A DNA stretch of 47,900 nucleotides. It comes from Deltaproteobacteria bacterium (GTDB taxonomy: Bacteria > Myxococcota_A > Polyangia > HGW-17 > SLPX01). The notes under the pieces are model-generated. The model ran no database searches and was not told the DNA's origin. It saw nothing but the letters and a program-made list of their open reading frames with translations. The stretch is taken from the NCBI GenBank assembly GCA_021162935.1, contig JAGGXR010000049.1, positions 1 to 47,900 on the forward strand. Direction: 5' to 3'. How positions within the stretch are numbered: position 1 is the stretch's first letter; each line of letters opens with the position of its first letter. Positions 14,580-26,873 of this stretch are shown here, in pieces. The position numbers were made by a program, and so were the translations under genes.

Positions 14580-14637
14580 CACGAAAAACCGGACCTTGCA
14601 TCCATCCTTCAAAATAGGTACCCTAAATCGTGTCATC

Positions 14638-16029
14638 ATGGAACAGCCGCAGCCCCACAAGACCAGGACGCTCAAGACGGAAATCGGTGCTGATGAACCG
14701 ACACCCATGACCGAAGACGTGCATCCCGAGCAGCTCTCCGAACAGGATTCCTTGGTATTTGCGGCGAGCTGGAACCTCGCAACCAACTATCAAATGGTGG
14801 GCCGCATCCAAGAATCGGTGGAATATTATTTGGTCTCTGCGGCCATTCTGGAACGATCTGGTCAGTATCCCAAACAAATCTACGAGATGGTGCTCACCCT
14901 CGACCAGGACAACGCCCTGGCCGCCTCCCGACTGGATCCGTCGGCCGTATCCCGATCCCGGGGCGCCTTGTTCGTGCAACACGTGCTGTCCCGTCACGAC
15001 GTGGAGCAGATCCTCGAAACCCTGAAGGACGAGGAACGACGCCGATGGGTGACCCCGCCCAGGGGCAACCAGCGGGCCTGCCCCGAATGCGGCATGGGCA
15101 TCGCCGAGGGCCAAACGGTCTGCGCCATGTGCGGAGCCAAGCTCCAGTCGGCCTATCAACGCCGATCCACTGCAGCCTATTCGGTCACGGCCGATGGCTC
15201 CATCGAGCCCATCGCTCTCGCAGCGGCATCGACCAACGCTACAGCCGACGAGGCACAGGCCCCGATCAAGCAGATGGATCCATCACCCAAACAGGAATCC
15301 TCGTCCCCAGTGCCGAACGAAAACGCCGATGACCTCCAGACGGATCCGATCGTGCCTCGGACTCAGGCGGACAGGACGGATACGGCCAAGATTCGCATCA
15401 GCAACGTCGCCGGGATCCAGAATAGCGCAACGCCTCCGGTCGGACGGCAGGTGAACAACGCCTTCGTGGCGCTCGTGGATATGGAAGGCAAGCCGCTCGG
15501 ACAGGCCGCGGGCCCCGTCATCGAAGTGGGCAGTGCTGTGGGCCGCCTGGGCACAGGCCGCCCAGGCCTTGCCGACGAGCAGGCCCGCATCGAGTGGAAC
15601 GGCTCGGCCTTCACCGTACGGACGGCAGACGGAGCCCCCGTCCATGTCGTGGTCCATGGGGAGTTTCTGTGCCAACCAGGCCAGCATGTCCAGGTGGGCC
15701 GACAGGTCCTTCGGATCGACTCGGTGCCGAAAGGCATCCAGGTGGCGCTGCTGGGGCCGAATGGACAACCCACCATAATCTGCGCCTTCAAAGAGGATCG
15801 GATCAACCTGGGCGCCTCGGATGCGTCCCTTTCCTTTCCCCAGGACCCATACCTCGCGCCAGGCCACGCAGAACTCGTCCGCACGGATCAAGGGGTGCTC
15901 CTGCGCGACCTGGACACGGATTCGGGCACCTTCGTAAGCCTGCCGAGCCCCGCGGAAGTTTCTCCGGGCACCGTGTTGCGCTTTGGGGACTACTTCGCCT
16001 CCCTGGACCTCTCTGGCACGCAAAACTGA
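14638..16029 (+). CDS. Zinc-ribbon and FHA-domain protein
   Basis: A 463-residue cytoplasmic protein, probably a phosphothreonine-binding adaptor. The ATG at 14638 is the first plausible start after the palindrome; no strong ribosome site is seen, and ATG 14707 is an alternative. The N-terminal ~130 residues are helical and TPR-like (AASWNLATNYQMVGRIQESVEYY). A zinc ribbon follows at about 147-171 (CPECGMG ... CAMCGAKL). After a disordered linker there are two FHA-like regions, about 295-375 (VGRLGTGRPGLADEQARIEW) and 380-463 (LGASDASLSF ... LAPGHAELV ... LRDLDTDSGTFV). The second keeps the D-S-GT-V pattern but not the usual G-R and S-x-x-H motifs exactly. FHA proteins commonly read marks placed by Ser/Thr kinases; the kinase at 24105 is a possible partner. 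lipB begins 9 nt downstream. Confidence 0.82.
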   Translation: MEQPQPHKTRTLKTEIGADEPTPMTEDVHPEQLSEQDSLVFAASWNLATNYQMVGRIQESVEYYLVSAAILERSGQYPKQIYEMVLTLDQDNALAASRLDPSAVSRSRGALFVQHVLSRHDVEQILETLKDEERRRWVTPPRGNQRACPECGMGIAEGQTVCAMCGAKLQSAYQRRSTAAYSVTADGSIEPIALAAASTNATADEAQAPIKQMDPSPKQESSSPVPNENADDLQTDPIVPRTQADRTDTAKIRISNVAGIQNSATPPVGRQVNNAFVALVDMEGKPLGQAAGPVIEVGSAVGRLGTGRPGLADEQARIEWNGSAFTVRTADGAPVHVVVHGEFLCQPGQHVQVGRQVLRIDSVPKGIQVALLGPNGQPTIICAFKEDRINLGASDASLSFPQDPYLAPGHAELVRTDQGVLLRDLDTDSGTFVSLPSPAEVSPGTVLRFGDYFASLDLSGTQN

Positions 16030-16038
16030 GCTTTCGCC

Positions 16039-16836
16039 ATGGCTTCTGCAGAATCCCTGTCCGCACCCGTTTCCCCAGGCGAAAACCCGAAAATTTTTTC
16101 ATCGGAACGGGGACAACGGCCGGTCGCTGCCTCCCTCGGCCTCGTCCCCTATGGTCGGGCCCACGACCTCCAGGTCCACCTGCGTGACTGCATTCTCCGC
16201 AAACGCCTGCCCGAGGTGATCCTCGCCCTCGAACACCCACCAGTCATCACCCTGGGGCGCCGCGGGGATCCCGCCAACATCACGGTGCCCGATGAAACAC
16301 TCGCCAATCTGGGCGTGGAGGTGCACCAGATCGAACGAGGCGGCGACGTCACCTACCACGGCCCAGGCCAGCTCGTGCTCTACCCGATCATGCGCATCGA
16401 TCGATCGGTCCGGGCCCACGTGGCCGCCATGGCTCAGGCCGCCACCGAGGTCCTCGCCGACCTGGGAATCGAAGCAGCCTGGGACAACGACCGACCGGGG
16501 CTGTGGGTGGACAATCGCAAGATTGCCGCCATCGGCGTCCACGTGCACCACGGCGTGGCCATCCATGGCCTGGCCGTCAACCTGTCCACGGATCTGTCTG
16601 GATTCGACCTCATCGTGCCCTGCGGCCTGCGGGACGCAGGGGTCACCTCGGTCGCCGAGCAGCAGGGACGATCTCCCAACCCGGCGGACCTGTCTGAAGT
16701 GCTCATCACGCGATTCTTAGAGGCGAGTCACCGGCCAACTGCTCACTTTTTGCGAGACTTTGAACTTTTTTCATATCTTCATGAGCAGGACTGTCCCTTC
16801 GATGGAGAAAAGGCCGCCGATCGAAACGGTCGCTGA
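16039..16836 (+). CDS. lipB: Octanoyl-[acyl carrier protein]:protein N-octanoyltransferase
   Basis: LipB transfers octanoyl groups from acyl carrier protein to lipoyl domains of dehydrogenase complexes, the first step of lipoate synthesis, in the cytoplasm. Family motifs are intact: RGGDVTYHGPGQLVLYPI, GLWVDNRKIAAIGV with the catalytic Lys (about 161), and HGLAVNLSTDLSGFDLIVPCGL with the catalytic Cys (about 195). At 265 residues it is slightly long, with about 30 extra residues at each end. It starts 9 nt after the FHA gene stop with a weak ribosome site, so it may be translated from the same message. No lipA is present in the window. Confidence 0.95.
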   Translation: MASAESLSAPVSPGENPKIFSSERGQRPVAASLGLVPYGRAHDLQVHLRDCILRKRLPEVILALEHPPVITLGRRGDPANITVPDETLANLGVEVHQIERGGDVTYHGPGQLVLYPIMRIDRSVRAHVAAMAQAATEVLADLGIEAAWDNDRPGLWVDNRKIAAIGVHVHHGVAIHGLAVNLSTDLSGFDLIVPCGLRDAGVTSVAEQQGRSPNPADLSEVLITRFLEASHRPTAHFLRDFELFSYLHEQDCPFDGEKAADRNGR

Positions 16837-16989
16837 TGGAATTGAACCTGGCGATCGGCGTCTCTGCGCCCATTGGCGACCCCACGAGCCTGCCCACAAG
16901 GCCACAATCGGACCTTGCGTCACATGGTTCGTATTTTGCATGACACTTGTTTCATCAAAGATTGGATTCGAACCCGCTCGGAGGACAAC

Positions 16990-17628
16990 GTGCGACATCC
17001 ACCGATTTCTACTCAAGGCCACCACGCCCCCAGTCATCACGCCTGGCCAGCAGGACAACGGGGCTTTTCCCTGGTCATCGTGTTCCTGATCCTATCCCTG
17101 ATGGCGGCGGCGGCCATGGCCGTGCTCCTGTCGACACGAACAAACGTCCAAGTCGTGGGCCACGAACGGGAAAATGCCGTGGCCTTCTACTCGGCCGAGG
17201 CAGGGCTGGCCTATGCCAAGGCCGATTTGCTTCCAAAGTGGAACAGTTCCACGTTCTGGACGCCGGTCCTGCGCACCTCGAGCTACACGATCGGCGTCAC
17301 GAGAGATTACAAGTTCGGCGGGCAGCAGGGCATACCCCAAATCCGGGCGAACTACACGTTCCGATTCTCCAACAACGACAGCGACCCGAGCGCGTCGGCC
17401 AATACCGACAGCGACGGCAAAATCGTCATCACGTCGGTGGGGCGCGCGTTCGACTCATCTGGCACGAGAGTCATCGCCACGGTGACCCTGCAGATGGAAG
17501 TGGAATGGCAGGCAGCCGCGTCCAGTGCGGCCGACTACCAGGCCCAGTCGAATCAGGGAGCCACCGGATCCGCGCAATCGACGTCGGACACGGGAGCTGT
17601 GGACATGACAGGCCATACAAGTTTGTAG
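16990..17628 (+). CDS. pilX: PilX-like type IV pilus assembly protein
   Basis: A minor pilin-like protein of 212 residues. The start is a GTG at 16990, chosen because GGAGG lies exactly 5 nt upstream; in-frame ATGs further up lack this. An unusually long leader of about 24 residues ends at QRG, followed by the PilX N-terminal helix (FSLVIVFLILSLMAAAAMAV ... RTNVQVVGHERENAVAFYSAEAGLAYAK). As in other PilX proteins there is no Glu at position +5. It should sit in the inner membrane and join the minor-pilin priming complex with PilV, PilW, FimT and PilY1. The C-terminus is Ala/Ser/Gln-rich. It is the first gene of the pilin run, 153 bp after lipB. Confidence 0.88.
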   Translation: MRHPPISTQGHHAPSHHAWPAGQRGFSLVIVFLILSLMAAAAMAVLLSTRTNVQVVGHERENAVAFYSAEAGLAYAKADLLPKWNSSTFWTPVLRTSSYTIGVTRDYKFGGQQGIPQIRANYTFRFSNNDSDPSASANTDSDGKIVITSVGRAFDSSGTRVIATVTLQMEVEWQAAASSAADYQAQSNQGATGSAQSTSDTGAVDMTGHTSL

Positions 17629-17647
17629 AGCACGAGGAGGCCCGAAG

Positions 17648-18223
17648 ATGAAACGTATGCTGACCATCGTCGCCGTCACGGCGGCCGTCCTCTTCTGGTC
17701 GAGCGGCGCCGCTCGGGCAACAGATCGATATTCGAGGGGCAGGACCCTCTACTTTCGACGCTGTGGCCCCTGCTTCAGCATGGGATGGAAGTGGAACCCC
17801 TCGCCCATCCGCACCAAAAACCTGAACCTGTTTGCCCTGGCTCGCAAGTGGAGTCCGGCAAAGGTCTGCACCTGGATGCGGACCTCCACCAAGCACCTGA
17901 CCCCACCTGGCTGCTACCCGGGCAGGATCCGATACCGCAACAAAGTGGATATCCTCTATTACATCATGCGCGCGAGTCAGGGGCCCATCAGACGACCTCG
18001 CATGGAAGCACTTTGGCCGGGACGTCTCAAGCCGATCCGATTCAAGCGTCTCCTTCCGTCCAAGTTGGCAACGGCTCGAAAACGCCTCAAGAACCTCCTG
18101 GAACTGCGCCGATTGCGCTGGCATAGCCCCATCAAGAAAGGGAAGTGGAGCGGTTCCACCACCCCTCCCACATCCGCCGGGTCCAAGAGCAATGCCAGTG
18201 ACCGCCGTCCGGTGAAGAGGTGA
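17648..18223 (+). CDS. Small basic exported protein, cytochrome c-like without haem His
   Basis: A 191-residue protein with a signal peptide (cleavage near ARA-TD, about residue 24). A strong GAGGAGG precedes the start. The first part of the mature region resembles a class I cytochrome c (YSRGRTLYFRRCGPCFSMG). The CxxC is present (Cys 39, Cys 42), but the residue after it is Phe, not the haem-ligand His. A second pair (VCTW ... PPGCYPG) is also present. The C-terminal half is very rich in Arg, Lys and Pro. So it probably does not bind c-type haem in the standard way; a cytochrome-derived fold or unrelated disulfide protein are both possible. It lies between pilX (20 nt) and pilY1 (5 nt), so it is surely part of the pilus operon, but its role there is unknown. 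Confidence 0.8.
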   Translation: MKRMLTIVAVTAAVLFWSSGAARATDRYSRGRTLYFRRCGPCFSMGWKWNPSPIRTKNLNLFALARKWSPAKVCTWMRTSTKHLTPPGCYPGRIRYRNKVDILYYIMRASQGPIRRPRMEALWPGRLKPIRFKRLLPSKLATARKRLKNLLELRRLRWHSPIKKGKWSGSTTPPTSAGSKSNASDRRPVKR

Positions 18224-18228
18224 TGGTC

Positions 18229-21200
18229 ATGAAAAAAACAGCACTCACCCTCATCCTTGGCGCCATTTTGCTTCCGTCGTCCGCCCGGGCCACGAATCCA
18301 TACTGCTTCAACAACCTGGACCGGACCACGTACGACAGTGGATTTTCAGACTCGGACTTTCAATCCAAAACCGACATGGAGGTCCAAAGCGGCCATCTGA
18401 AACTCGTCACCGACGACAAAAAACTCGGCGACGTGAACCACATCACGATCCGAACGAGGCAGGATCTGAGGATCTATTATTTGTATGAGTCGGCCGGTGG
18501 AAGCCACACCCTGGGTTGGTTTTTGTGGGACGACAACGTCAAGAAATACACCACGGACAACGGCTGGAACTACACGTCCCAGACCTGCGGGAGCGACAGC
18601 GACTGTGACACGGGCATGCGGTGCCAGAGCAACGGCAGCGGCAACTATTGCGCCTACCATCGCTACAAACTACGCGACGACGGCACGGCCGGCGGCGTGG
18701 CCAACGACCAGTCCTACGACTGGTTCGAAGACATGTACCTCAGCTCCTGCACCACCTGCACCCCATACCTCCTGACCGGCAACCAGTCCGACGGGGGCGC
18801 CTATCCCCATATTCCGAACCTGCTCGAACACCTCGTGTCCCAGGGCGGCGGCTGGATCTTTTTCCTCTGCGACGACGACACGGATCTCGCCACGGGTGGC
18901 GGATCGCCCAGGTTGCCGCCGGTCGCCGACATCTCACGGACAAACAACGGCATCCCGGACTACGACGTGAACGGCGACGGCGACATCACCCTGGACGACC
19001 GAATTCATGAAATGGGCACCTTCGACTCTGGCACCGAACTCGTATTCTTCCACGTCATGTACTACGGCCAGTATATGAACAAGGCGTCGGCCGGCATTGG
19101 TTCCACGCAGCAATGCCAGTCGGTGCACATCACCTGCGCGAGTTCCTGCGATGGCACAGAATGCAACCAGTGTCCCACAAAATGCAGCAGTCGGCGGCAT
19201 TATCGCCGTACCTGGTGCTATCGGCATGGCTGCCACGCGTGCTACGACCACTGGGAACAGCAATGTTCCGGCTCGGGCAACTCGGGCACCATCCACTCGA
19301 ATATTATCCCGTTCTTCTCGAAGCGGGTGCTGAACCCGGACTACGCATCATCGGGCAATGAATCCTGGGACCGAGACATCGGATGTGGATATCCACACTG
19401 GTGCAGCGGCTCTCAGGGCTGGCTGGACCAGGCCACGCTGGATCGGCTCAATTCCGATTTCGGCATCGTGATGCCCCACGAGGTCAAACGTATCTACGTG
19501 CGCCAGGACGGTCAGATGAATCACATGTTCCTGGGCGCACCCAGCACCGACCCCACTTGGTGGCTCCTTGGCTTCGAAGACCTCTACAACGGAGGCGACA
19601 AGGACTACAACGATATCGCCTTCCTGGTCTGGAGAACGAACGGCGGCGAGGCCGTGTCCGACATCGTGTCGGACGAGATTCCTGCAAACGAGCGCAACGA
19701 AGTCACCATTACAAAAGTACACATCAAGAAAAGCGATCACATTCCCATTCCACCCTGTTCTTCGGATCCGGCCAAGACACGGATCGAGTATTATGTCGCC
19801 GTCAGCGAAGACGCCCACGGCAACCCGCTCTGGATCAAAGTGGACTTTCCCGCCGACAGCCCCGACGAGGTCACGTTGGACATCCAGTCCATGGGGTACA
19901 CGGGCGGCGAACTGCGATGGAAGGCCGTCATCATCGCGGACAACCACAAGTGTCAACCCGAGGTGGACGACATCGACGTGGGCTACGAGGCGCTCAAGCA
20001 TGGCGAGTACGTGTTCACCCAGCCCATTGTCTTAGCCAATGCTCTCTACCGCGGCACCACCGAGACTCCATCCTCGACCTGGAGCGTGACCGGCAACGAC
20101 CGGTCCAACCGCGGACACTTCACCATGTATGAAATGTATGCGCCGTCCAATCCGAACAACACGATCAACCAGGTTGTGTGGGATGCGGGCCAGTCTCTGG
20201 CAAACACGAACCCGGACCAACGGCACATCTACACGAACAACAACGGATCGCTCGAAACCTTTGCGGCTCCTGGTTCGAGCTGGTTGCTCCAAAGGATCCT
20301 GACCAGCACGGACCGCACCACGAAAAACAACGGGCTGCCAGTCTACGATCTGGATGGGGACCGGGACAGCGACGACGACGATGCGCGATTCGTGGTCCAA
20401 TGGGCGCGTGGCTGGGAACAGCCCAACACGGTCCAACGAGCCTGGAAGCTCGGGTCCATCAACTCATCGAACGCCGCAGTGGTGCACGTGCCGGGCCGGC
20501 CGGCCTGGCTGGAAGGCACTGGCATCAGCGGAACGATCAAGTCGGGCTACCAGACATGGGCCAAAAACCAGGCCGGCCGACGGAGTATCGCTATCGTGGG
20601 CGCTCAGGACGGCATGCTCCACGCCTTCGATGCCGGTGAGTTCGAATGGGGTGACAACCCACAGACAAGCGTCGTGGAGCAGCGGGGCTACTTCAAGTTC
20701 GTGTCGGGCAATCCATCCTACGGTGACGGCCATGAGGTATGGGCCTTCGTGCCGGAAAGTCTGCTCAACTTCATGAAGAACAACGAGGTGCGCAACTACT
20801 ATCCGGAACTGAACCCCTTTGCCATGGTCGATGGCTCGGTGATGATCACGGATGTCTACACACAGAGCAGTTGGAAGACCGCCGTTTTCTTCACCATGGG
20901 GCGACAGCACCCATACCTGTCCGGTCTGGACGTGACCACACCGACCCAACCGCGTCCCCTATGGCCCCAGGACTGGAGCGACTCCGACTTCCACGGCACC
21001 GTCGCCGCCCCGACAGCCTCGTGGGTGAACGTGGGCTCCGTGGACCCCAAGGGCAAGATCTGGATGGTCGCCACCTCATCGGGCCTGGCGGACACCCCAT
21101 CCGACGTATACCTTTTCCTGATCGACGCTGCAACGGGCCAAACCCTGACCCACGGGAAGGTGAAACTGAACGTGGGCGCAGGCGTGCGATCCGAACGGGC

Positions 21201-21900
21201 GTACGGCGTGGCCGGTCGCCCTGTCCTCGTGGACCGAGACGGCGATGGCTACACGGACGCAATCTACGTAGCCGACACCACGGGACGCGTCTGGCGGCAC
21301 GAGCCCAACGGGGCTGCCGGCAACTCCTGCCTCGTCGCCTCGGTGGGCCAACCCATCTACGTCACGCCGGTGGTCTCGGTCCGCCAGGACACGTTGAGCG
21401 GGTCCAACGTGGTCGCGTTCTACTTCGGAACGGGCGACCGGCCCGATGAAAACGACACGGTGCATCCGCCTTACTCCTTCTATGGATTCGTGGACCGGGA
21501 CACGCCGGGCACATGCAGTCTGTCGGACCAGCTCTACAAGGCCACCCTGCCTCCGGACGAAAAGGTCTGGGCCGACGCCTTCGTGTCCGCCGATCGCGTC
21601 TACGTGGGCACCTCGACCGGCGACAAAGCGAACATCTGCGACGAGGATCCCACAAACCCGGGTCATATCTATACCTTTGACCTGCAACCTGATTCGAACG
21701 GGCATGCCCAGCAGCTCTCCAACCCAGTCAGCGCAGGCGGCAGCGTGGTCTCTGGCGTCATCGTGTATGACCAGCACCTCTTTGCGAATACCCTGGGTGG
21801 CAAGACGCAGATCGTGGGAGGTTCGACATGGAACAACCTGGCCTCATCGGCCTCGAATACGGGTCTCCACGACGTCTATTGGCAGGAGGTGGTCCAATGA
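18229..21900 (+). CDS. pilY1: PilY1-like pilus tip/biogenesis protein
   Basis: A 1223-residue exported protein. ATG 18229 fits the GAAGAGG upstream; two alternative starts lie just before it. A signal peptide (cleavage near ARA-TN) is followed by a long N-terminal region without the von Willebrand A domain found in many PilY1. Instead there is a Cys/His-rich stretch with ten Cys (about 293-347) and a DUF4114-like domain (LGFEDLYNGGDKDYNDIAFLVW, about 444-465). Two similar Asp-rich loops (PDYDVNGDGDITLDDR and PVYDLDGDRDSDDDDA) look like calcium sites. From about residue 786 the PilY1 beta-propeller is clear (IAIVGAQDGMLHAFDAGE, VWAFVPESLL, FGTGDRP), with the calcium loop DRDGDGYTD near 1003. 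It probably caps the pilus and controls extension/retraction and adhesion. pilV overlaps its stop by 4 nt. Confidence 0.92.
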   Translation: MKKTALTLILGAILLPSSARATNPYCFNNLDRTTYDSGFSDSDFQSKTDMEVQSGHLKLVTDDKKLGDVNHITIRTRQDLRIYYLYESAGGSHTLGWFLWDDNVKKYTTDNGWNYTSQTCGSDSDCDTGMRCQSNGSGNYCAYHRYKLRDDGTAGGVANDQSYDWFEDMYLSSCTTCTPYLLTGNQSDGGAYPHIPNLLEHLVSQGGGWIFFLCDDDTDLATGGGSPRLPPVADISRTNNGIPDYDVNGDGDITLDDRIHEMGTFDSGTELVFFHVMYYGQYMNKASAGIGSTQQCQSVHITCASSCDGTECNQCPTKCSSRRHYRRTWCYRHGCHACYDHWEQQCSGSGNSGTIHSNIIPFFSKRVLNPDYASSGNESWDRDIGCGYPHWCSGSQGWLDQATLDRLNSDFGIVMPHEVKRIYVRQDGQMNHMFLGAPSTDPTWWLLGFEDLYNGGDKDYNDIAFLVWRTNGGEAVSDIVSDEIPANERNEVTITKVHIKKSDHIPIPPCSSDPAKTRIEYYVAVSEDAHGNPLWIKVDFPADSPDEVTLDIQSMGYTGGELRWKAVIIADNHKCQPEVDDIDVGYEALKHGEYVFTQPIVLANALYRGTTETPSSTWSVTGNDRSNRGHFTMYEMYAPSNPNNTINQVVWDAGQSLANTNPDQRHIYTNNNGSLETFAAPGSSWLLQRILTSTDRTTKNNGLPVYDLDGDRDSDDDDARFVVQWARGWEQPNTVQRAWKLGSINSSNAAVVHVPGRPAWLEGTGISGTIKSGYQTWAKNQAGRRSIAIVGAQDGMLHAFDAGEFEWGDNPQTSVVEQRGYFKFVSGNPSYGDGHEVWAFVPESLLNFMKNNEVRNYYPELNPFAMVDGSVMITDVYTQSSWKTAVFFTMGRQHPYLSGLDVTTPTQPRPLWPQDWSDSDFHGTVAAPTASWVNVGSVDPKGKIWMVATSSGLADTPSDVYLFLIDAATGQTLTHGKVKLNVGAGVRSERAYGVAGRPVLVDRDGDGYTDAIYVADTTGRVWRHEPNGAAGNSCLVASVGQPIYVTPVVSVRQDTLSGSNVVAFYFGTGDRPDENDTVHPPYSFYGFVDRDTPGTCSLSDQLYKATLPPDEKVWADAFVSADRVYVGTSTGDKANICDEDPTNPGHIYTFDLQPDSNGHAQQLSNPVSAGGSVVSGVIVYDQHLFANTLGGKTQIVGGSTWNNLASSASNTGLHDVYWQEVVQ

Positions 21901-22406
21901 GTCACGCCCCGACCCCTCCGGTATGGCGTTCCTGTGCCTTGCCGAATCGTGGGCAGGCAGGGATCACGCTGACCGAGGTGCTCATCTCCATGCTCCTGGT
22001 GGTCGGTGGGCTGCTGGGTCTGACCCGAGTCGCATCCGTGGCCGTTTCGTCGAACAGCAAGAGCTTCCGCATGGACCAGGCAGTGAGCAAGGCCCAGGCG
22101 CGCCTGGAAGCGCTCAGGAACGTGCCCACGGCAGCCCTATCCTGCCTGGCCGGTGGCTCCGCTCCGTCCGCGTGCGTGTCCAGTTGCACCGCGGCAGGCG
22201 GCGAGCAGGTCGCCTGCCAGACGGCCATGGGGACGGCGCCCGGCAACAACACCGACCAGATGGCGACCCCGTACCAATATGCATTCCTCGTGCGGCAGTC
22301 GAACGCAAACGTGTACGACATCCAAGTCCTGGTCACCTTCAACGACGACTCGGTGGATCCCCCAAAACCGGTACGCATCCTGCTGCGGACCGCTGAGTTC
22401 AGGTAG
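21897..22406 (+). CDS. pilV: PilV-like minor pilin
   Basis: A 169-residue type IV prepilin-like protein. The ATG overlaps the pilY1 stop as ATGA, with GGAGG 7 nt upstream, so translation is probably coupled. The prepilin peptidase site is GQAG/ITLTE, with Gly -1 and Glu +5 intact but Ile rather than Phe at +1. The hydrophobic helix (VLISMLLVVGGLLGLTRVASVAV) is typical of PilV. The periplasmic part is short and has four cysteines in CLAGGSAPSACVSSCTAAGGEQVAC. It should take part in the minor-pilin complex that primes pilus assembly and carries PilY1 to the tip. Confidence 0.9.
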   Translation: MSHAPTPPVWRSCALPNRGQAGITLTEVLISMLLVVGGLLGLTRVASVAVSSNSKSFRMDQAVSKAQARLEALRNVPTAALSCLAGGSAPSACVSSCTAAGGEQVACQTAMGTAPGNNTDQMATPYQYAFLVRQSNANVYDIQVLVTFNDDSVDPPKPVRILLRTAEFR

Positions 22407-22412
22407 GCAGCC

Positions 22413-23487
22413 ATGCACGATCGAATCATGAAACGAACCATCAGCCAACGACGCACAGCCGGATTCACCCTGATCGAACTGATGATCGCCATGTTCCTGG
22501 CAAGCTTCGTGGTGGTTGCGGCATTCCACATCCATAGCACCTTCCAGTCGGCCCTCCATCGCCAGGACCAGGTCAGCCGCATGCAGCAGACCATGCTCGT
22601 GACCAGACGCTTGCTGGTGCGGCGACTCCGATCGGCGGGAGGCGGTCTGACCACGAATCTCTGGTCCACCTGCGGCGGAACGCATCAGGTCGGCCCTTTC
22701 ATCCTGCACAACAGGAACCAATTCGGCGCAACGGACACATCGAACAGCGGGTCGGATCCGGACCCGGACTGGTTCGAAATCATGTCGGTGGATCACTCGC
22801 GAAGCGGCGTTCTGAGTAGAACCTTTCCGCTCTCGAGCCAAGAAATCCCCACGAATCAGGCCAGCAACTTCCATCCGGGAGACATGTTCGTACTCCAAAA
22901 CGAGCACGGCGCCTGCCTCCTCATGGTAAGCAAAGTCCAACACAATCCAGCATCAACCGGCCGGCTGGGGTTCGACCAAACTGGCAAACTGTTTCAATCA
23001 AGGGCGCTCCATGACAGCCTGCAAGAACGAAATGAAAACAAACAAACTTCCTGTAGGCTCTCCGATCCTGAACCTGGGCAGCGGCAGCGCGGCCTTCCGC
23101 ATCGACGACTCGAACCCAAAGCGCCCCCTGCTCATGATGGCGTCGAGCCAGGCGGGAGGCGACCCCTCTCAATACGATTGGCAGCCCGTCGCCGAAGGTG
23201 TCGAGGACATGCAGATCGCGGTCCAACTGGACACGAGCGACCCACCGGACGCCATCGGAGACGTCTGGGTCAACAGCCGCGACCTCCAGACGAGCGAACT
23301 CGGCAAGGCCCGTGCAGTGCGTATTTCATTGGTGTTCCGCTCCATGTCGCCGGCGACGGGTTGGAGTTCCGGCAGGCGCCCGGCACTTGAGGACCGCCCG
23401 GCGGCAACGAGCCAGGACGGCTACATCCGTAGGGTGCTGACCACCATGGTCAAGCTCCGCAACGTCCCCACGGAGGCGAAACCATGA
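22413..23487 (+). pseudogene. pilW: PilW-like minor pilin, apparently frameshifted
   Basis: The N-terminal half (from ATG 22413) has the prepilin site TAG/FTLIE and a PilW helix (LMIAMFLASFVVVAAF). It reads as a normal protein to about HGACLLMVSKVQ (22940). After that this frame turns into Arg/Pro-rich nonsense typical of an out-of-frame GC-rich shadow. The expected PilW ending (SPILNLGSGSAAFRIDD ... GVEDMQIAVQLD ... ARAVRISLVFRS) is found in the +1 frame to the stop at 23487, where the next gene overlaps by ATGA. That frame is open only after a TAA at 22927, so the shift lies between about 22930 and 23010. The cause may be a real mutation, a sequencing error or programmed frameshifting. Full length would be about 357 residues, normal for PilW. 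Confidence 0.8.
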
Positions 23488-24038
23488 TTCGCACTCGAAA
23501 AACCATCACATCGAGCCAATCAGGCTTCACCCTGATCGAATTGATGATCACCATGGTGATCGCCGTTGTCTTGACCACCGTCGCCTACTTTTCGACCCGG
23601 CAGGATCGATTCGAACGGGACATGGACGATGACGCCGCGGCCATCATGGCCGCCATGCGCGAAGCCCGGATTCGCGCCATCAATCATGGGGTGCGCTACG
23701 CCGTCCGTTTCACCCGCACGTCGGTCCAATGGTGTGAGGACACCTGCCCACCGCAATCCGGAAAAGAATTCGGAAAGCGGTACTGGGTCCCCAAAGGTCC
23801 TCTTGCAATCAGGTATGCAAACGTGGCAGACTTCGACCTGCCAGCTATGCCGTCGAACTACTCCATGTGGTCCAAGTTGATCTACTTCCTGCCCGACGGC
23901 ACCATGGACGCAAACCTCACCACGACGCAAAAGGAGGGCTTCACGGTTTACCTCCGCCATCAAAAAAAGTTCGCCTTGCGGTACCGCATCGTGGTCCTTC
24001 CCCTGTCCGGGCAGGTCCGCCTGTTCAAGAACTGGTAG
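23484..24038 (+). CDS. fimT: GspH/FimT-family minor pseudopilin
   Basis: A 184-residue prepilin-like protein. The ATG overlaps the pilW stop as ATGA with GGAGG 7 nt upstream. The leader ends in SQSG/FTLIE with Glu +5. The helix LMITMVIAVVLTTVAYFS and then MAAMREARIRAINHGVRYAVRF match GspH/FimT. It is the last gene of the compact pilin cluster. FimT relatives serve as minor pilins and some bind DNA during natural transformation; the sequence does not show which role applies here. The overlap with the intact C-terminal frame of pilW supports that frame as the real ending of pilW. Confidence 0.88.
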   Translation: MIRTRKTITSSQSGFTLIELMITMVIAVVLTTVAYFSTRQDRFERDMDDDAAAIMAAMREARIRAINHGVRYAVRFTRTSVQWCEDTCPPQSGKEFGKRYWVPKGPLAIRYANVADFDLPAMPSNYSMWSKLIYFLPDGTMDANLTTTQKEGFTVYLRHQKKFALRYRIVVLPLSGQVRLFKNW

Positions 24039-24104: not shown

Positions 24105-26873
24105 ATGCACCACGCGGAAGCATTCATCGGGAAGACATTGCTGGGAAACTACGTCATCGAGACATCCATCGGCCATGGCGCCATGGGAGCGATCTATCAA
24201 GGACGGCACCGCGTGCTGGATCGCAAGGTGGCCGTCAAGGTGCTGCGTCACAACCTGCGCGATGACCCGGACGAGCGACACAGATTCCACGTGGAGGCGG
24301 AAACCGTTGCCAAACTCACGCACCCCAACGTTGTGACCATCCTGGACTTCGGCACGACGGACGAGGGCGCGCCCTGCATCGTGACCGAATTCATCGCCGG
24401 CGAGACCATCACCGACATCCTGGACAGCGAAGGGCCTATCGAGCCCTGGAGGGCCACCAATATCATCGAACAGGTTCTGTCCGCCCTCATCGAGGCCCAC
24501 TCCATGGGAATCGTGCACCGAGACATCAAGTGCGACAACATCATGGTGCAACGACTCCGCGACGGCCAGGAACAGGTCAAGCTCGTGGACTTTGGCATCT
24601 CGCTCATGAAGGGACACGAGGTGTCCGACTCCGGATACATCTTCGGCACACCTCTCTACATGTGCCCGGAACAATGCAAAGGGATGACGCCCGACGGACG
24701 CGGCGACCTGTACTCCCTGGGCGTCGTGTTCTTCGAAATGCTCACGGGCGAGCCCCTGTTCTACTTCGACAGCCCGTACGACTACCTCAACGCCCACATC
24801 ACGATCGTACCGCCCAGACCGAGCGACATGGCCGATCAGCCCATCCCACGAGCCATCGAGGCCATCATCCTCAAGCTCCTCGAAAAGAATCCAAACGACC
24901 GCTACCAGTCCGCACAGGAAGTGAAGCAGGCCCTGCACCAGTGGAGTGTCTCCCGAGTCTCCACGGACAAGGGCATCATGCCCATTCGAGAAGGATCAGA
25001 CTCCGACAGGACCCAACGATTCGACGATCGGACCACGTCGGTCCGCACGGCCACGGACATCGAACGGGAGCCGTACCGAGCCGCCATTCTGTCCGAGGAC
25101 CATGACTTGGTCGAGGTCCTCTCGTCCACCCTGGTCAAGGCGGGTCTGGAGCCCTCTGCCTTCGAAGATCCGACAGACCTTGCGTCGAGCCTGCGGTCCG
25201 ATCAGACCTTCGACCTGTACTTCTTGACCACGCCACGAGAACCACAACGCCTCGGGCCACTTGCCACGGATATCCTCGTCCGAGACCCCCTGGCCGAAAT
25301 TCTGATTCTGGGAGGCATGGCCCATATCCAGGAATTCCCCGATGGACTGCAATGGGCGGCTTCGGATTTCCTCATTCGCCCCTTCGGCAATGCGCGGACC
25401 CTCATGGGGCGCATCCGGGCGGCCCGCAGGCGCAGACAGGAAAATCGGGTCCAATCCGATCTCCTCCGCACGGCCATGGCCGCCCTGGCCCAGGCCGACC
25501 GACAGGGAAACTCACTGGCCGGCGAACTCCAGGCCATGCTGGAACGCATTGCGGCGAACCCTCCCCATATCGTTCTGTTGGGCACCGACGCCACCCAACG
25601 AGCCCTGCAACGACGAGGCCACCAGGTCCTCCTTGCCGAAAACGTGGAAGACATGTGCCGTCTCATCGCGAAACGAGGTCTGGACGCGGTGGCCATCGAG
25701 ACGAACATATCGAAACAGTCGGCCGTGGAGGCCACGTCGGCCGTGATCTCCAGACGCCCAGACCTGGAGGTCATCCTGGCAGGATTCCAGGCCGAGCTGT
25801 CGGACCTGCTCGAAGCGGTGGACATGGGGGCCACCGACTTCTCGGTCCGGCCTATCGAGGACCTGGAAACCTTTTGTCTCAAGGTGGAGCTGGCGGTAAC
25901 GCGCCGCAGGAGACGCCTGCGCATCCGACGCCTCCTCAAGACCCTCGATACGGTGGTCGAGTCCACGGACGAACAGACCACCAGGGAACGATTCGAACAC
26001 GTCCGTGCGGCCCTCTCGGAAACCCTGACTATCGAAGCAGAGCCTCCAGACTACCATGAGACGTCACCGCTCCAGGGTCTGTCCAACCCCGTCATCCTTG
26101 TTGCAGAGCCCGATCGGATCGTGGCAAGCCTCATTGAACGCAGCATCGAAACCACTGGATGGACGGTGGTTGGTGCCCATTCCATGTCCAGCGCCATCGC
26201 GGCCATCCGGCAGAATGAATTCGATCTGGCGGTGGTGGCGAGCAAGGCGCCCACGGATCCCGCCTGGACCCTGGGTGCCTTGCTCGCCGGTATCGCCGAG
26301 GGTCAAAAACAGACCCCCGTGATCCTGATCGGCCAGCCATCGCCTGGACAGATCACGGGAAAATTTCCCACCGAACGCATCGCCGGCCGTATCGCCACCC
26401 CCTTACAGGGAATCGCCTCGATCAAGACAGCGGTGCAACTCGGCATTCGCCTGAGGAAACGTCTCCTGCAGATCCGATCCGATACGAATATGGTCCCCAA
26501 CGATCTGACCGTGCTGCTCGTGGAACCAAATACGACCATCGCGGAGCGCCTCTCGAATCATCTCCACCAGCACCGCATCCCCGTGCTCCATGCCACGGAT
26601 CTCGAACAGGCTTGTAATCTGGTGGCTCGATACGACATCAGCGTCGTGGCCGCCAACATGGAGATCCTGCTGGCCGGAACCGGCGACGAACTCGAACGAA
26701 TCCATACCATAGAATCTCAAGTCCCCATCGTGGGATATGGCCCATCCCCCAACCGAACCCAAGTGCTGTCAAGTCTGGCATCGGGCGCACGAACCGTCAT
26801 CGCCGACCCAGTGACCAACTTCCCTTCGTTCGTCGAGGCCATCCAAAGCGCCCATGACGAACGTGATTCGTAA
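24105..26873 (+). CDS. Ser/Thr protein kinase with four degenerate receiver domains
   Basis: A 922-residue cytoplasmic Hanks-type kinase. The kinase domain (about 13-285) has the glycine loop IGHGAMGAIYQG, VAVKVL (Lys), VEAETVAKL (Glu), VHRDIKCDN, VDFG and GTPLYMCPEQ, so it should be active; CPE replaces APE. There is no transmembrane segment or PASTA domain. Four response-regulator-like domains follow, at about 323-440, 486-600, 661-780 and 800-922. Each starts with a receiver-type strand (AAILSEDHD, HIVLLGTD, VILVAEPD, TVLLVEPN). In all four, the position expected for the phospho-acceptor Asp is changed: FDLYFLT, LDAVAIE, FDLAVVA, YDISVVA. So they probably act as docking or pseudo-receiver modules; the second carries Glu, which can mimic phosphate. 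The gene begins 66 nt after fimT in the same direction, with no clear ribosome site or promoter between. Confidence 0.9.
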   Translation: MHHAEAFIGKTLLGNYVIETSIGHGAMGAIYQGRHRVLDRKVAVKVLRHNLRDDPDERHRFHVEAETVAKLTHPNVVTILDFGTTDEGAPCIVTEFIAGETITDILDSEGPIEPWRATNIIEQVLSALIEAHSMGIVHRDIKCDNIMVQRLRDGQEQVKLVDFGISLMKGHEVSDSGYIFGTPLYMCPEQCKGMTPDGRGDLYSLGVVFFEMLTGEPLFYFDSPYDYLNAHITIVPPRPSDMADQPIPRAIEAIILKLLEKNPNDRYQSAQEVKQALHQWSVSRVSTDKGIMPIREGSDSDRTQRFDDRTTSVRTATDIEREPYRAAILSEDHDLVEVLSSTLVKAGLEPSAFEDPTDLASSLRSDQTFDLYFLTTPREPQRLGPLATDILVRDPLAEILILGGMAHIQEFPDGLQWAASDFLIRPFGNARTLMGRIRAARRRRQENRVQSDLLRTAMAALAQADRQGNSLAGELQAMLERIAANPPHIVLLGTDATQRALQRRGHQVLLAENVEDMCRLIAKRGLDAVAIETNISKQSAVEATSAVISRRPDLEVILAGFQAELSDLLEAVDMGATDFSVRPIEDLETFCLKVELAVTRRRRRLRIRRLLKTLDTVVESTDEQTTRERFEHVRAALSETLTIEAEPPDYHETSPLQGLSNPVILVAEPDRIVASLIERSIETTGWTVVGAHSMSSAIAAIRQNEFDLAVVASKAPTDPAWTLGALLAGIAEGQKQTPVILIGQPSPGQITGKFPTERIAGRIATPLQGIASIKTAVQLGIRLRKRLLQIRSDTNMVPNDLTVLLVEPNTTIAERLSNHLHQHRIPVLHATDLEQACNLVARYDISVVAANMEILLAGTGDELERIHTIESQVPIVGYGPSPNRTQVLSSLASGARTVIADPVTNFPSFVEAIQSAHDERDS

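Follow-up and report, generated by a model that had tools for sequence, protein, structure and literature searches.

A Hanks-type kinase gene with four serial pseudo-receiver modules downstream of a minor pilin cluster

Pseudo-receivers, or Asp-less receivers (ALRs), are domains that can be identified as receivers but in which the acceptor aspartate is missing (PMC12632262, PMC4395418). Known examples work by being covalently modified, through their multimeric state or by binding a ligand, and the working of the bacterial members has been described as largely unknown (PMC12632262). In ShkA and CikA, the pseudo-receiver keeps its own kinase inhibited, and binding of a ligand or partner lifts this restraint (PMC12632262); the fungal protein kinase Rim15 also carries an Asp-less receiver (PMC8510515). 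Going by a title cited in PMC6213207, the Ser/Thr kinase SpkA has been reported as a regulator of pilA operons and motility in Synechocystis.

The gene described here lies on the forward strand at 24105–26873 (stop codon included) of the window, by which we mean the whole stretch of 47,900 nucleotides that was analysed (contig JAGGXR010000049.1, Deltaproteobacteria bacterium). Its product of 922 residues is predicted to be a Ser/Thr kinase followed by four pseudo-receiver modules (R1–R4). The ORF list shows it as one uninterrupted frame of 922 codons, GC3 is high and coding-type from end to end, and the distance from the start ATG to the kinase domain equals that in a relative from a second genus (see below).

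The kinase domain (24150–24929, forward strand; residues 16–275) matches Pfam PF00069 (Pkinase) with an E-value of 2.7e-46 and 158.5 bits, against a cut-off of 31.7. The Hanks motifs occur in order: the P-loop GHGAMG (23), VAVK (K45), HRDIKCDN (138), DFG (162) and CPE, APE-like (187). With its catalytic residues complete, this Hanks-type Ser/Thr kinase is expected to be an active enzyme, as the preliminary description of the locus had supposed. The domain is PknB-like: within NCBIfam, a prokaryotic library, the nearest model is that of the PASTA kinases of the PknB/Stk1 family, at 286 bits against a cut-off of 450. It is followed by a linker of ~45 residues without a membrane segment, and no membrane segment was found anywhere in the 922-residue protein (maximal 19-residue hydropathy of 1.36), which is thus probably soluble and cytoplasmic. 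No known input domain besides the receivers was found in the protein either. The proposal that the kinase senses the state of the pilus finds no backing in these results; direct sensing is unlikely, since no part of the kinase crosses the membrane. No Rfam family was matched in the window between 23000 and 30500.

The remainder of the protein holds the four receiver-like modules, all on the forward strand: R1 (25071–25454; residues 323–450), R2 (25551–25940; residues 483–612), in which helix 1 is shortened, R3 (26076–26474; residues 658–790) and R4 (26493–26870; residues 797–922). Pfam Response_reg matches the protein in four stretches with a whole-protein E-value of 2.3e-20. Taken singly, the modules score 16.1, 30.8, 19.2 and 22.3 bits from R1 to R4, and R2 alone passes the cut-off of 30.2. 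An HMM trained on receivers of the same genome matches all eight modules (four in the window, four in the relative), with the qualification that 6 of its 20 members were in the wrong frame; a clean rebuild was used for the acceptor columns described below. The four receiver-like modules of the preliminary description are thereby borne out, with only the first half of R3 aligning to the receiver HMM.

Structural comparison places R4 most firmly. An AlphaFold2 model of R3–R4, built from two sequences, has a pLDDT of 62. Within it, R4 (model residues 146–269) superposes onto solved receivers with Z-scores of 16–17.6 and an rmsd of about 1.8–2.2 and is the only module that is well covered in the VIA structure comparison; R3 is modelled at a pLDDT of about 34–72 and is barely covered there. 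The top Foldseek matches over both modules are the tandem receivers of PleD, with an rmsd of about 22 Å over the pair, and full-length ShkA (6qrj) is also among the matches. A single-sequence prediction of the full-length protein reached a pLDDT of 35.5, and statements about the fold do not rest on that model.

Alignment with hmmalign to the rebuilt receiver HMM identifies the residues in the acceptor column as Thr375 (R1), Glu532 (R2), Ala712 (R3) and Asn851 (R4), while the relative has Ser, Glu, Ala and Lys, respectively. The same column is occupied by Asp in 20 of 20 canonical control receivers from this genome; these are its best-scoring receivers and serve as a check on the column, not as a census of Asp-less receivers. 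Of the acceptors previously read as T, E, A and A, the first three stand and the fourth does not. In R4 (YDISVVAANMEI), the acceptor is an asparagine encoded at 26655–26657. Three observations converge on it: the HMM alignment, a phmmer alignment to AdeR, and its distance of 44 residues from the acidic pocket, which R1 and R3 share. Ala849 (nucleotide 26649), a candidate from a motif-based reading, lies two residues upstream of Asn851 and was overruled by the alignments. The acceptor Asp that defines a canonical phospho-receiver is thus present in none of the four modules, other pocket residues have mostly been lost as well, and on these alignments R1–R4 fit the definition of pseudo-receivers. 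Because the acceptor Asp is missing from all four, control of the kinase by the usual two-component phosphate transfer is unlikely, and something else probably controls it.

Among 59 related genomes, a match was found in one, G001, which shares the GTDB family of the window but not its genus (Deltaproteobacteria bacterium isolate S10.Bin075, contig JAABSF010000189.1). Contig scans of named genomes returned nothing with the single protein as query and only this contig with the alignment. Searches of the order (13 genomes) and, with a profile, of the phylum (379 genomes) gave, beyond the window and the relative, only single-module matches; in the phylum, besides the window, this was one such match in an apparent NtrC-type regulator. 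The kinase domains of the two proteins are 69% identical, and the modules 39% (R1), 48% (R2), 31% (R3) and 32% (R4). Every module has its best match in the corresponding module of the other genus, so the four-module array is older than the split of the genera, and all four modules have been kept. R1 and R2 resemble each other, as do R3 and R4, which weakly suggests an array of two pairs. Three stretches, DPLAEIL, SDFLIRPF and VISRRPDLEVI, are identical in the two proteins. In the relative, the kinase and the array lie in open frames of different phase, which share 175 nt within the linker (L011 2390–2564; L046 3420–3594). This offset may reflect an assembly error, a real frameshift or two genes; we infer a single gene. 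As far as two sequences can tell, the combination of a kinase with a four-module array is a narrow yet inherited feature, and its conservation is thin.

The kinase gene directly follows genes for minor pilins, as had been noted before. A minor pilin/PilY1 cluster on the forward strand (16873–23487) comprises a pilX-like gene, a small gene (17648–18223), pilY1 (18220–21900), a pilV-like gene and a pilW-like gene, and is followed by a fimU/gspH-like minor pilin gene (23484–24038; N_methyl E-value of 1.7e-8, weak GspH match). The latter ends 66 nt before the kinase start at 24105, on the same strand. The order of the pilin genes is constant across the order. In the relative, the kinase also follows pilY1-pilV-pilW-fimU on the same strand, with a gap of 137 nt after fimU, and the downstream neighbours differ: LonB on the opposite strand in the window, and a radical SAM protein in the relative. 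Since the adjacency is kept in two genera while the downstream genes differ, the upstream side is the conserved one. Elsewhere in the order, outside this family, BLAST of the sequence following the pilins, of which about 0.5 to 7 kb is available in most cases and none in two that end at fimU, gave no hit to the present kinase domain. Neither a promoter nor a forward terminator was seen in the 66-nt gap, by weak scans and in a space that could fit an unseen promoter, and the one forward terminator-like site detected is inside the fimU gene. Co-transcription of the kinase with the pilin genes is plausible on this arrangement.

Two further observations concern the cluster itself. A frameshift near 23000 divides the pilW-like gene (22413–23487) into ORFs 22413–23390 and 23011–23487; in relatives, the gene is a single frame of ~350 codons. 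The split may be an assembly error or a real break. Directly upstream of pilX, in the window (16039–16836) as in the relative, lies lipB, a gene of the lipoyl ligase A/B family. It stands beside pilX only in the two kinase-bearing genera, and elsewhere in the order it is found on contigs apart from the pilin cluster.

The preliminary description also proposed that an FHA protein encoded near 14638 might read the phosphorylation. An FHA domain is indeed present, at about 15820–15987 (25.8 bits, cut-off 20.7), in a protein (14635–16029) that probably starts near 14635 and also has a zinc-ribbon match. Its gene lies upstream of the kinase on the same strand, with lipB and the pilin genes between them. 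Across the order's twelve other genomes, matches were confined to the FHA domain, with no full-length counterpart, and the contig of the relative ends inside lipB, short of the position of the FHA gene. A pairing of the kinase with this protein is possible, without backing from conservation.

We consider the array to be a phosphorylation-independent docking and autoregulatory scaffold on a soluble kinase that is expressed with the minor pilins and acts on the type IV pilus machine, and give this reading a probability of about one half. The four receiver folds, unable to take an Asp phosphate, would form the regulatory part of the kinase. They might bind a partner or ligand, or one another across a dimer, and such binding would free or restrain the kinase, in the way that the histidine kinases ShkA and CikA are governed by their pseudo-receivers. 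The kinase gene would be expressed together with the minor pilin/pilY1 genes, and its product would phosphorylate components or regulators of the pilus machine. We infer that the kinase is active and under the control of the array, that its gene is co-transcribed with the pilin genes, and that its substrate is pilus-related; the tie to pili is drawn from the neighbourhood alone.

The same neighbourhood could be fortuitous, the kinase being a general signalling enzyme that is unrelated to pili and lies downstream of them by chance. Kinase neighbourhoods are common in a genome with roughly 80 kinase matches, the pilin genes of the order's other families have no kinase match after them over the available sequence, and the gaps before the kinase in both genera are looser than the spacing of the pilin genes. 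This reading is nevertheless rather doubtful, since adjacency and orientation have been kept in two genera although the genes downstream differ. It is somewhat less probable still that the array is the decaying remnant of a working receiver chain, once part of a phosphotransfer-fed hybrid kinase and now drifting to loss behind a constitutive kinase. The receivers have diverged much further than the kinase domain (31–48% versus 69% identity), part of helix 1 of R2 is lost, R3 aligns to the receiver HMM in its first half only, kinase and array are out of frame with each other in the relative, and the other receiver-kinase fusion of the genome keeps its Asp. However, a useless tail of 600 residues would be expected to be truncated, and the four modules are instead open, in order and without Asp in both genera, with Glu in R2 and Ala in R3 of both and with the three unchanged stretches named above.

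The acceptor residues themselves allow a further reading, in which the former acceptor site of R1, now Thr375 (Ser in the relative), is phosphorylated by the kinase and the Glu of R2 is a fixed phosphate mimic. A hydroxyl residue in R1 and a Glu in R2 are found in both genera, and GlnR, a pseudo-receiver protein, is known to be phosphorylated on Ser/Thr (PMC12632262). Only two sequences bear on this pattern, though, and the acceptor pocket is perhaps beyond the reach of a Hanks kinase; we regard such control as improbable. The bolder version, in which the array swapped Asp phosphotransfer for Ser/Thr chemistry through phosphorylation of the R1 hydroxyl and the four modules are read serially to set the output of the kinase on the pilus machine, is more improbable again. 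If the scaffold reading is correct, the locus would add a Ser/Thr kinase to the set of genes accompanying the pilus tip complex. As four differing pseudo-receivers sit on one, probably soluble, kinase that can be assayed directly, the effect of each module on the enzyme should be measurable.

In the genome (5.1 Mb), Ser/Thr kinases account for roughly 80 matches and receivers for 72, and some of its open frames have two kinase matches (e.g. C160 and C114). Two receiver-kinase fusions emerge when the kinase matches are compared with the receiver matches: the gene described here and a second one of 476 residues on another contig (C103, 21500–27000). The claim that such a protein is rare thus holds within this genome, where one other fusion, with its Asp retained, stands among all the kinase matches. 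A limited literature search, which included papers on kinase architecture and had most subscription papers outside its scope, did not recover a Hanks kinase with serial receivers. The parts of the protein are known and their combination has analogues; it is the presence of four serial pseudo-receivers on a Hanks kinase that was not recovered in that search.

The closest arrangement in the same genome, the C103 protein, likewise consists of a Hanks kinase followed by a receiver, but it has one module, and the acceptor column of that module is occupied by Asp. The NCBIfam model nearest to the kinase domain, that of the PASTA kinases (PknB/Stk1 family), is matched with a score far under the model cut-off, whereas the kinase described here has neither PASTA domains nor a membrane segment. 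PleD resembles the array in having two serial receiver folds, although the match does not extend to how the modules are placed relative to each other (rmsd of about 22 Å) and its output is a diguanylate cyclase rather than a kinase. Rim15 is alike in being a Ser/Thr kinase with a C-terminal receiver fold, whose acceptor position is occupied by Glu in Ascomycota, Ala in S. cerevisiae and Gly in C. albicans (PMC8510515). It differs in having one receiver instead of four and in being a eukaryotic kinase, of the Greatwall family by the titles cited in PMC8510515, with no pilus context. ShkA and CikA share with the present protein a kinase-borne Asp-less receiver, and in them intramolecular inhibition is relieved by a ligand or partner (PMC12632262), a role that is proposed here for the array; unlike it, they are histidine kinases, with one pseudo-receiver described in each.
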